Source: Paraburkholderia caffeinitolerans (lineage in GTDB: Bacteria; Pseudomonadota; Gammaproteobacteria; Burkholderiales; Burkholderiaceae). From it: 64,000 nt of DNA. The notes below the pieces were generated by a model. The model saw nothing but the letters and a program-made list of their open reading frames with translations, was not told the DNA's origin and ran no database searches. Position 1 is the first letter of the stretch, and each line of letters starts with the position of its first letter. Position numbers and translations under genes: made by a program. The stretch covers positions 234,845-298,844 of the forward strand of contig NZ_CADIKL010000004.1 of NCBI RefSeq assembly GCF_902859945.1. The letters are read 5' to 3'. Positions 17,159-44,837 of this stretch are shown piece by piece.

Positions 17159-18384
17159 GCGGTGGTCTCCGGCGTCGCGGCACGGCCGCGCTTCGAGTCC
17201 CGTTTCGAGTCCCGTTTTGCACCTGGCTTCGTTTCGTGCGATAGCGGGTCGCCGGCCTGTCCTGTGGCCGCGACGTGGACTTCGCCCGCGCGCGCTTCGG
17301 CGTCGATCAGCGCCGCCTTGCGCGCGAGCCCCCAGCGGTAGCCGGCGAGCGCCCCGCCCTTTTGCACGACGCGGTGACAGGGAATCGCCAGCGCCACCGG
17401 GTTCGATGCGCACGCGCTTGCCACGGCGCGTACCGCGCGCGGCGCGCCGAGCGTTTCGGCGATCTGCGTGTAGCTGCGCGTTTCGCCGTACGGAATACGC
17501 TGGAGCGCGTCCCAGACCCGCTGCTGGAATGCCGTCGCGGCGATGTCGAGCGGTAGCTCGATGTGCTCGCTGCGGCCATGCAGATAGGCGTCGATCTGCG
17601 CGACGAAAGGCGCGAGTCCCGCCGCGTCCTCGATGCAACGTGCGTTCGAAAAGTCGGCCACTAGATTTGTGCTCAACTCGCCGGGATCGTCGCCGAATGC
17701 GATCCGGCAGATGCCCTTGTCCGTTGCCGCGACGAGCACGCGCCCGAGCGGCGTGGCGGCACCCGCATAGCGGATCGTGAGGCCCGCACCTTTCCGGCGG
17801 AACGCCGACGGCGCCATGCCCAGCTCTCCCGCCACGCTCTCGTAGAGCCGCGACGACGAGTTGAAGCCCGCGTCGGCGCTCGCGCGCGTGACGTCGGCGC
17901 CTTGCGCGAGCGCTTCGCGCAGCACGGCGCCTCGGCGCGCCGCCTGGTATTGGCGCGGTGAGACGCCCAGCACGCGCTTGAAAAGGCGCTGCAGATGGAA
18001 CGGACTCAGGTGCACGGCCTCGCCGAGCTGCGCGAGTGTGAGACGCGCCTGGGGATCGGCGTCGAGGGCGGTGCAGGCGCGCCGCACGATCTCGAGCTCG
18101 CGCGGCAGACCGCCGGGGCGGCAACGCTTGCACTCGCGGTAGCCGGCCGCGCGAGCGGCGTCGGCATCGACGAAGAACTCGACGTTCTCGCGGCGCGGCA
18201 GGCGCGATGCGCAGGACGGACGGCAAAACACCCCGGTCGTGCGCACGGCGTAGAAGAACTGGCCGTCGGCGCGCGCGTCGCGCGCCGTGATGGCGGCCCA
18301 GCGCTCGCTATCGGTGGTCAATGCGGGGACGGACCCGAAGACAGCGGCGAGCTCGCCGCGAGCGGCGGTCGGAATGGCGTTCAT
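17155..18384 (-). CDS. ada: Bifunctional Ada regulator and O6-methylguanine-DNA methyltransferase
   Basis: 409 residues. The N-terminal zinc domain has the four cysteines (VFCRPSCAS and ECKRCRPGG) that accept methyl groups from phosphotriesters; an AraC-type DNA-binding region follows (LSPFHLQRLFKRVLGVSPRQYQ); the C-terminal methyltransferase carries the acceptor cysteine in AIPCHRVV. Ada becomes an activator of alkylation-repair genes when methylated, and it is coupled here to alkA. ATG 18384 follows GGGAG by eight bases. A basic tail of about 55 residues ends the protein and includes a short internal repeat (RDSKRDSKR) encoded by a duplicated 12-base unit near 17190-17218. Confidence 0.95.
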   Translation of the reverse strand: MNAIPTAARGELAAVFGSVPALTTDSERWAAITARDARADGQFFYAVRTTGVFCRPSCASRLPRRENVEFFVDADAARAAGYRECKRCRPGGLPRELEIVRRACTALDADPQARLTLAQLGEAVHLSPFHLQRLFKRVLGVSPRQYQAARRGAVLREALAQGADVTRASADAGFNSSSRLYESVAGELGMAPSAFRRKGAGLTIRYAGAATPLGRVLVAATDKGICRIAFGDDPGELSTNLVADFSNARCIEDAAGLAPFVAQIDAYLHGRSEHIELPLDIAATAFQQRVWDALQRIPYGETRSYTQIAETLGAPRAVRAVASACASNPVALAIPCHRVVQKGGALAGYRWGLARKAALIDAEARAGEVHVAATGQAGDPLSHETKPGAKRDSKRDSKRGRAATPETTA

Positions 18385-18587
18385 TTCGTGGCTCCCGGAA
18401 ATGGCGGATTCGATGGTCCCACTGTAACGGCTCGTACACATGCCGGCCTGCCGGATCTTGCGCTGTCGTTCAGATGATCTGGCCCGACGACCAGGCGGCT
18501 GATGCCCGGCCAGCAATCGCCTGCCATAAAAGCGAGGTGGCGACTGCGACAATTTCGCCCAATTGCGGGTTTTCCCTTAAAAACTTG

Positions 18588-18616
18588 TTGCGCCGCGTCA
18601 GGTCGCTGTGTATAGT
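18588..18616 (+). promoter_or_regulatory. Sigma-70-like promoter of a candidate sRNA
   Basis: TTGCGC (18588-18593) and TATAGT (18611-18616) are separated by exactly 17 bases. A start near 18623 would place the RNA directly in front of the CU-rich repeats and terminator. There is no ORF between this promoter and the terminator. Confidence 0.6.
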
Positions 18617-18622
18617 GATTCC

Positions 18623-18684
18623 TGTCTCCTCCATGTCTCCTCCTGATATGGATTAAGCCCGCTCACAGTAGCGGGCTTTTTTTC
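18623..18684 (+). ncRNA. Candidate short sRNA with two anti-Shine-Dalgarno repeats
   Basis: The predicted transcript is about 60 nucleotides. Its 5' part holds two exact copies of TGTCTCCTCC (18623-18632 and 18634-18643) separated by one A, giving two unpaired CUCCUCC stretches able to pair with ribosome binding sites. Its 3' part is a strong rho-independent terminator (18656-18684). The pattern of a CU-rich 5' region plus terminator hairpin resembles Hfq-dependent sRNAs that block translation initiation, such as alphaproteobacterial RNAs with CCUCC loops. Family membership is not claimed; function is inferred. Confidence 0.6.
18656..18684 (+). terminator. Rho-independent terminator of the sRNA candidate
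   Basis: AGCCCGCT (18656-18663), loop CACAGT, AGCGGGCT (18670-18677), then a run of T on the plus strand. The minus strand has no T-run, so it terminates plus-strand transcription only. No protein gene lies upstream on that strand. Confidence 0.88.
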
Positions 18685-44049: not shown

Positions 44050-44125
44050 TGGTGGGGCGTGAGTGACTCGAACACTCGACCTACGGATTAAGAGTCCGCT
44101 GCTCTACCAACTGAGCTAACGCCCC
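44050..44125 (-). tRNA. tRNA-Lys (anticodon CUU)
   Basis: 76 bases on the minus strand including an encoded CCA. Acceptor GGGGCGT pairs with ACGCCCC; D-arm TTAGCTCAGTTGGTAGAGC; anticodon stem GCGGA/TCCGT with loop CTCTTAA, giving anticodon CTT (Lys, codon AAG); T-arm GTTCGAGTC. All standard features are present. Confidence 0.96.
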
Positions 44126-44432: not shown

Positions 44433-44837
44433 ATGGACGAAAAGGCAATCGACGCGCTGCTCGATCGCGTGCTGGCGCCGTGGGTGAAAGCGCTCAGGAT
44501 GAGGCCGGTCGAGGTCACGGAGGAGAGCGCCACGATGCGTCTGCCGTTTTCCGGCGAGTTGCGCCATTCGGGCGGCGGGATCTGCGGCCAGGTGTTCATG
44601 GCGGCCGCGGATACGGCCATGATCGTCGCCATTACCGCCGCGCTCGGCGAGTTCAAGCCCATGACCACCGTTGCGCTCAACACCAATTTCATGCGCGCGG
44701 TGCGCAAGGGCGACGTGACGATCACCGCACGCGTGCTGCGCATGGGCCGCAATCTGGTGTTCGGCGAAATAGAACTCTACGACGAAGAAGGCCGTATGGC
44801 CGTCCACGCGACCTCGACTTACGCGCTCCTCGACTAA
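44433..44837 (+). CDS. Hotdog-fold thioesterase (PaaI-like)
   Basis: 134 residues from ATG 44433 (MDEKAIDALLDRVLAPWVKA). The hotdog core is visible: LRHSGGGICGQVFMAAADTAM, ALNTNFMRAVRKGDVTITARV, GRNLVFGEIELYDEEGRMAVHATSTYALL. Family members hydrolyse acyl-CoA or aryl-CoA thioesters; substrate unknown. The patatin-like gene follows after 38 bases, so both may act on acyl groups. Confidence 0.9.
   Translation: MDEKAIDALLDRVLAPWVKALRMRPVEVTEESATMRLPFSGELRHSGGGICGQVFMAAADTAMIVAITAALGEFKPMTTVALNTNFMRAVRKGDVTITARVLRMGRNLVFGEIELYDEEGRMAVHATSTYALLD

Follow-up and report, generated by a model that had tools for sequence, protein, structure and literature searches.

In Burkholderia cenocepacia J2315, four RNAs of the Rfam family RF02278 (ncS03, ncS05, ncS27 and ncS62) have been seen by dRNA-seq and are described as 'double-hairpin RNAs' with reverse complements of ribosome binding sites (RBSs) in their unpaired regions; RBS pairing has already been proposed for them, by prediction (PMC4603805, PMC5688073). 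Overexpression of ncS27 slows planktonic growth and its silencing speeds it, neither treatment has a significant effect on biofilm, and in glucose medium ncS03 is up 8.0-fold and ncS05 6.9-fold (PMC5688073). According to both papers, which cite Kimelman 2012 on this point, RF02278 relatives inhibit the growth of E. coli, and three of the four B. cenocepacia copies have a 'common upstream motif' (PMC4603805, PMC5688073). The regulation of sRNA accumulation was called unknown in 2017 (PMC5688073).

Herbaspirillum has four RF02278 members (PMC7011215), and in Bordetella pertussis the RNA S17 represses a target through RBS sites in an Hfq-dependent manner (PMC11722255). S17 resembles RF02278 RNAs in its 5' end (bdhR1 is 2 nt different there), in the pairing of its Sites 1 and 2 at RBSs, in its dependence on Hfq and in the many transporter genes among those affected; it differs in being raised in the Bvg+ mode, in having a 190-nt form and in its processing by RNase E (PMC11722255).

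PhaR is a PHB-binding repressor (PMC12849132, PMC3206438). Its operator is YTKNTGCRNYGCANMAR in Ralstonia eutropha (PMC12849132), the footprinted operator of Herbaspirillum is TG[N]TGC[N]3GCAA (PMC3206438), and the motif in S. meliloti has the core YGCRNYGCR (PMC12542648). S. meliloti also provides a precedent for an sRNA under PhaR: MmgR is PhaR-controlled, and PhaR shifts the mmgR promoter in gel assays (PMC12542648). MmgR is alphaproteobacterial and its reported role is in phasin levels and the amount of PHB, which sets it apart from the system proposed here (PMC12542648, PMC8401924).

We analyzed a 64,000-nucleotide stretch of the Paraburkholderia caffeinitolerans genome (the window), in which a compact promoter-repeat-terminator unit had been predicted to encode an sRNA. 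Our data place this RNA in RF02278. We predict that it pairs with the RBSs of mRNAs for nutrient uptake and catabolism and so blocks their translation, and that it likely answers to PhaR, a reading to which we assign a probability of roughly 0.6. The PhaR link is the new part, which we infer from comparative data.

An RF02278 sRNA gene between ada and a VOC gene

The unit and the sequences directly upstream of it comprise the following features.

18567-18583, no strand: conserved element GGGTTTTCCCTTAAAAA (conservation in syntenic loci)
18585-18601, no strand: palindrome TTGTTGCGCCGCGTCAG, resembling the PhaR operator and overlying the -35 box; GCG in place of GCA is its 1 mismatch to YTKNTGCRNYGCANMAR
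18588-18593, + strand: -35 box TTGCGC (sequence)
18611-18616, + strand: -10 box TATAGT, 17-base spacer from TTGCGC (sequence)
18588-18616, + strand: predicted sigma-70 type promoter TTGCGC-17-TATAGT (sequence; conserved in syntenic loci)
18623-18684, + strand: sRNA gene of about 62 nt, RF02278 member (cmscan; conservation upstream of VOC)
18623-18632, + strand: anti-Shine-Dalgarno box 1, TGTCTCCTCC (sequence, fold)
18634-18643, + strand: anti-Shine-Dalgarno box 2, TGTCTCCTCC (sequence, fold, antisense of a Shine-Dalgarno (SD) plus ATG pattern)
18630-18652, + strand: hairpin 1, 8 pairs (fold; Rfam structure line; limited covariation)
18655-18683, + strand: intrinsic terminator with a 9-pair stem, AAGCCCGCT/AGCGGGCTT, at 18655-18678 and a T-run to 18683 (sequence, fold)

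The original prediction had named the TTGCGC/TATAGT promoter with its 17-bp spacing, the two exact copies of TGTCTCCTCC behind it and a terminator with a T-run, and each can be read directly from the sequence at the expected place. A consensus promoter scan at its thresholds returned 0 promoters, and the -35 hexamer is poor; we consider the promoter credible because it is conserved. A mechanically called 111-aa ORF (18321-18656, +) extends into the unit. We take this ORF as spurious, since part of it is antisense to the start of ada and its end lies inside the RNA. We also rejected a reading of the hairpins as the terminator of a neighboring gene: ada points away from the unit, and VOC begins downstream of it.

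In a cmscan search, 18623-18684 matched RF02278 ('Betaproteobacteria toxic sRNA') over the full model (1-64 of 64) with 76.8 bits against a cut-off of 50 and E = 8.5e-14 over the window. The Rfam search proposed with the original prediction therefore identifies the RNA as a member of a known family. Other matches in the stretch (NmsR, anti-hemB, BjrC1505, GcvB and further families) all fall below their own cut-offs; the sole other gathering match in the window is a tRNA gene at 44053-44125 (-). NmsR of Neisseria (RF02877) shares with the unit the paired UCUCCU boxes and the terminator, but the match to it is weak (24.7 bits, cut-off 52) and we do not count the unit as a member. Two weak RF02278 matches from two genomes of one family (L375, L376) resemble the Neisseria NmsRb consensus TTTCTCCTCTATTTCTCC...GTAGACTTGGCGCA, a likeness suggesting that RF02278 and RF02877 may be related.

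The RNA is predicted to fold into two hairpins, the second being the terminator with its T-run, at a minimum free energy of -25.6 kcal/mol (z = -5.78; 0 of 200 shuffles equally stable). By sequence and predicted fold, the two anti-SD boxes lie in the 5' tail and in a loop: box 1 is mostly in the free tail, with its first 7 nt unpaired, and box 2 presents UCCUCCU in the loop of hairpin 1. Box 2 preceded by CA is the exact complement of GGAGGAGACATG, an SD followed by ATG. Across 47 diverse members, double-sided changes occur at 10 of 14 consensus pairs; the terminator accounts for 7 of its 8 consensus pairs, each changed in some of the sequences, and covariation in hairpin 1 is limited to 3 of 6 consensus pairs with 2 sequences each.

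Copies and conservation of the sRNA

The genome that contains the window has four RF02278 copies above the cut-off and one weak copy. Matches with E <= 0.001 were found in 49 of 59 genomes searched (its own included), among them all 35 of the genus, which have 3 to 9 matches each. A 141-base promoter-plus-sRNA query gave matches in all 117 sampled genus genomes (117/117, its own included). Genome G041 (L262-L269) has 9 RF02278 matches, of which two are separated by 0.4 kb, and G172 has 8.

A search with the VOC protein returned at least 80 named loci, and the synteny counts given here rest on the 80 listed. Among the matches listed, the VOC protein has its nearest named relative in Paraburkholderia sacchari, at 97%. 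Of these 80 loci, 73 have the sRNA upstream of VOC, without a single difference among them in its first 32 bases. On the other side of the sRNA, ada is present in 72 of the 73, the remaining locus being truncated at its end; the 7 loci that lack the sRNA also lack ada, and some of them are contig ends.

For each region, we averaged the identity to the window across an alignment of 72 syntenic loci. The first 32 bases of the sRNA score 1.00 and the terminator 0.877. Upstream, the GGGTTTTCCCTTAAAA element reaches 0.974, the -10 region 0.756 and the spacer between -35 and -10 0.637; the PhaR-like site with the -35 box has 0.752, far below the neighboring GGGTTTTCCC element and about equal to the -10 region. 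The VOC coding sequence scores 0.668, the intergenic flanks 0.41 and 0.38, and the start of ada 0.36. The comparison with the neighboring genes that had been proposed as a refuting test of the repeats and hairpin thus came out in their favor: no part of the locus is more conserved than these first 32 bases.

This pattern bears on whether the window copy is a silent relic, or a terminator only, from which no RNA is made. The poor -35 match would fit such a reading, which we regard as very improbable in the face of 32 identical leading nucleotides in every sRNA-bearing locus listed, against about 40% identity in the spacers, and of the transcription of four homologs in B. cenocepacia (PMC4603805, PMC5688073). 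The window unit and the B. cenocepacia ncS RNAs have in common their sequence family, two hairpins, anti-RBS boxes and several intergenic copies per genome (PMC4603805, PMC5688073). The window copy, flanked by ada and VOC, is probably the ortholog of ncS05, because the relative gene orientations are the same and the RNA in locus L141 has the 67-nt length of ncS05. Within its known sRNA family, the window unit is an ordinary member, though a very well conserved one. The expectation of a trans-acting sRNA with two anti-SD boxes agrees with the family match, the conservation and the published work on relatives; the RNA itself is not new, and both its family and its several copies per genome had been missed.

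A PhaR-operator-like palindrome over the -35 box

The original prediction had also overlooked an operator-like sequence on the promoter. In the window's genome, TTGCGTCGCACCAA lies over the -35 box upstream of the paralogs, and sequences closely resembling it stand upstream of two phasin genes, each of which has two PhaR-like sites. In three of the four above-cut-off copies, the -35 box is overlaid by a sequence at most 1 mismatch from the Ralstonia PhaR operator. For the 'common upstream motif' of three of four B. cenocepacia copies, the text names no regulator, whereas here the palindrome on three of four copies could be matched to the PhaR operator. PhaR is absent from the main texts of both B. 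cenocepacia papers (PMC4603805, PMC5688073), and the main text of the S17 paper makes no mention of PhaR, PHB or phasins (PMC11722255). In the main texts of the papers searched, we found no statement of a link between PhaR and RF02278.

We surveyed the promoters of 154 loci, leaving out 9 in which no sRNA was found or the sequence was cut and merging identical promoters, which gave 126; the 110 bases upstream were scanned with the Ralstonia pattern at up to 1 mismatch. A site was found in 73 of 83 promoters of class 1 (the window type), 14 of 19 of class 2 and 16 of 19 of class 4, compared with 11 of 3989 control windows. Class 3, to which the fourth copy (L003) belongs, had one in only 1 of 5. 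Of the sites with up to 2 mismatches, those of class 1 (76 of 78) and class 2 (17 of 18) begin at -38. The 17 sites of class 4 begin at -66 to -70, where the -35 box of its longer transcript is presumed to lie.

Taken alone, the PhaR-like pattern is unspecific, with 116 sites in the genome at up to 1 mismatch compared with 70 for the reversed pattern. Five genome sites have zero mismatches, 2 of them at one phasin gene; judged by eye, the ORFs around the other 3 include no PHB gene. The window site reads GCG in place of the GCA of the Ralstonia palindrome, a form (TGC...GCG) shared by 30 of 83 class-1 promoters and, in a comparison of patterns, allowed by the S. meliloti motif YGCRNYGCR. Because GCG replaces GCA, the window copy may bind PhaR less well than the copies L002 and L004.

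Next to the palindrome, the GGGTTTTCCC box contains a dyad, GGG-N4-CCC (18567-18576 in the window), present at -56 in 80 of 83 class-1 promoters (at -55 in one of them) and in 9 of 19 of class 2, and in 0 of 19 of class 4, compared with 33 of 2868 control windows (L145-L184 being among the promoters). All five class-3 promoters (5/5) have it at -21 or -22, inside the spacer between -35 and -10 (at -21 in L003). We considered whether the GGGTTTTCCC box might be bound by a common regulator and identified no binder for it.

These observations raise the question of whether TTGCGTCGCA is a conserved -35 box, or the site of another regulator, inherited through duplication, in which case the sRNA would act as described but outside PhaR control. 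The paralogs may owe their common promoters to descent, the second conserved triplet of the window copy deviates from the Ralstonia pattern, and another, better conserved element adjoins the site. We nevertheless consider this reading rather unlikely: the conserved sequence reaches well past the hexamer and matches a palindrome that was defined elsewhere, on phasin promoters (PMC12849132), and the site is common to the two phasin genes of the genome. The distribution of the site relative to PhaR also argues against it, as does the presence of RF02278-like elements beside phaR.

The site tracks PhaR in a sample of the order

Of 160 sampled genomes of the order, 104 have RF02278 matches, 61 of them above the cut-off. 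We compared upstream sites with the presence of PhaR (scored by PF07879) at 73 loci from 62 genomes, mostly above the cut-off, which L330 and L331 narrowly miss; L259, whose best site has 4 mismatches, and some of the listed matches were left out. Within 150 upstream bases, a site with up to 2 mismatches was present at 35 of 55 loci from PhaR-positive genomes and at 3 of 18 from PhaR-negative ones (p = 5.5e-4; all p-values in this comparison are optimistic and serve as guides only, because the genomes have common ancestry and we applied three thresholds). The reversed pattern at the same threshold was found at 1 of 55 and 0 of 18 loci, respectively, and control windows of the same loci gave 9 of 65 and 0 of 20.

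With only the first locus of each genome counted, the site was present in 31 of 44 PhaR-positive and 3 of 18 PhaR-negative genomes (p = 1.3e-4), or 30 of 43 and 1 of 15 at a completeness of at least 90 (p = 2.1e-5). The contrast was weak at up to 1 mismatch (10 of 44 and 1 of 18; p = 0.10); at up to 3, the counts were 41 of 44 and 4 of 18 (p = 5.6e-8). When the best locus was taken by family and PhaR state, again at a completeness of at least 90, the counts were 17 of 20 and 1 of 8 (p = 7.1e-4).

There are exceptions on both sides. Among PhaR-positive loci that lack a close site, the best match has 3 mismatches in 13 of 55 and 4 in 7 of 55, G204 and most G041 copies being the main cases. Three PhaR-negative genomes have a site: two are less than 90% complete, and the third, G159, is a plain exception, with a 2-mismatch site and no PhaR match. 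What would mark a member of the PhaR regulon, an operator-like palindrome conserved among relatives and paralogs and tracking PhaR, was found here, with these exceptions.

RF02278-like elements in pha clusters

In six genomes from two other families, a weak RF02278-like element directly follows a phasin-like gene beside phaR. In the first, G056, phaR and a phasin gene (PF09361, 6e-19) are divergent, and a match of 33.1 bits comes immediately behind the phasin gene. The same order of phaR, divergent phasin-like ORF and GTCTCCTCC-hairpin-terminator is seen in G185, G229, G191, G234 and G273. The phasins were identified by Pfam in G056, G185 and G229 and by tblastn in G234 and G273; the one in G191 has a Pfam match below the cut-off (23.4 bits, cut-off 24.9). 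At the level of loci, L327, L362, L363, L372, L382 and L383 are GTCTCCTCC double hairpins after phasin-like genes, and L374/L384 diverge from phaR. In the seventh genome, G244, the element itself diverges from phaR, and we found no phasin between the two.

All five of the elements that we folded form two hairpins. Five phaR-adjacent spacers were scanned, and each has two or three PhaR-like sites at up to 2 mismatches; the reversed pattern gave none in the four spacers counted. We call these elements RF02278-like only, because their scores of 32-40 bits lie under the Rfam cut-off. Among 20 weak RF02278 matches that we inspected, 3 lie behind a phasin-like ORF and 1 beside phaR, and the other 16 have neither a phasin-like ORF nor phaR within 2.5-3 kb. 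The phaR-adjacent cases are not a random sample, since L327 prompted the search and L382 and L383 were chosen because a genome of their family had the arrangement.

Uptake genes among the predicted pairing partners

The pattern GGAGGAGA-N(1-9)-ATG occurs at 44 sites in the genome, compared with 4 for the reversed pattern. Because GGAGGAGA ahead of an ATG is also simply a good SD, this count is no proof of regulation. Three of the 44 sites are the antisense strands of sRNA copies. We assigned loci to 30 of the 44 and set aside the three sRNA copies together with one duplicate and a 46-aa ORF, which left 25 ORFs. Twelve of the 25, a raw count and no measure of enrichment, encode transporters, solute-binding proteins or a porin: four MFS proteins, five extracytoplasmic solute-binding proteins (one of the OpuAC type), a BCCT carrier, a lactate permease and a porin. 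Other ORFs of the set encode a GlcD-like oxidase, an enoyl-CoA hydratase, a mannitol dehydrogenase, a LigB-type ring-opening dioxygenase, an IclR regulator and a phasin-family protein, and two had no Pfam match at 1e-8. For one of the 25, L340 (window 44519-44537), the start codon looks internal to a longer ORF. The phasin-family gene, L346 (G000 C11:119665), has AGGAGGAGA ahead of the start codon, which makes a storage protein a possible target too.

The predicted targets fit the published target lists. They also bear on a broader possibility, that the RNA is a general growth brake whose two anti-SD boxes titrate RBSs wholesale, which would account for the toxicity that papers citing Kimelman 2012 report for relatives in E. 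coli (PMC4603805, PMC5688073). CUCCUCC is indeed a generic anti-SD. We judge this explanation unlikely: pairing is predicted to extend into an AGACA spacer, at -20.5 kcal/mol compared with -10.0 for a 16S tail (with an assumed tail sequence and one made-up target), and both reported and predicted targets lean to transport.

A proposed link between PHB storage and carbon uptake

In our preferred reading, an RF02278 sRNA that likely answers to PhaR, one box (in the 5' tail) or the other (in the hairpin loop) would pair with GGAGGAGA before start codons and keep the ribosome off. With little PHB in the cell, PhaR would sit on the -35 box and the RNA would be kept low. As PHB granules form, PhaR would be drawn away and the RNA would rise, turning down the uptake of further carbon and amino acids.

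In a wider form of this model, to which we give about even odds, the RF02278 anti-SD RNAs would be the RNA arm of the betaproteobacterial PHB circuit, their level set by whether PhaR is free or captured on granules, so that a full carbon store shuts out more carbon. In two families, the sister element would be the 3' end of a phasin mRNA and would couple granule coating to the shut-down of uptake.

The PhaR link, if true, would explain the rise of RF02278 RNAs in glucose medium, and would connect an RNA family that is widespread in Betaproteobacteria with the physiology of the storage polymer. Since PHB producers also serve as industrial strains, an sRNA brake on their uptake, if true, would be worth knowing.
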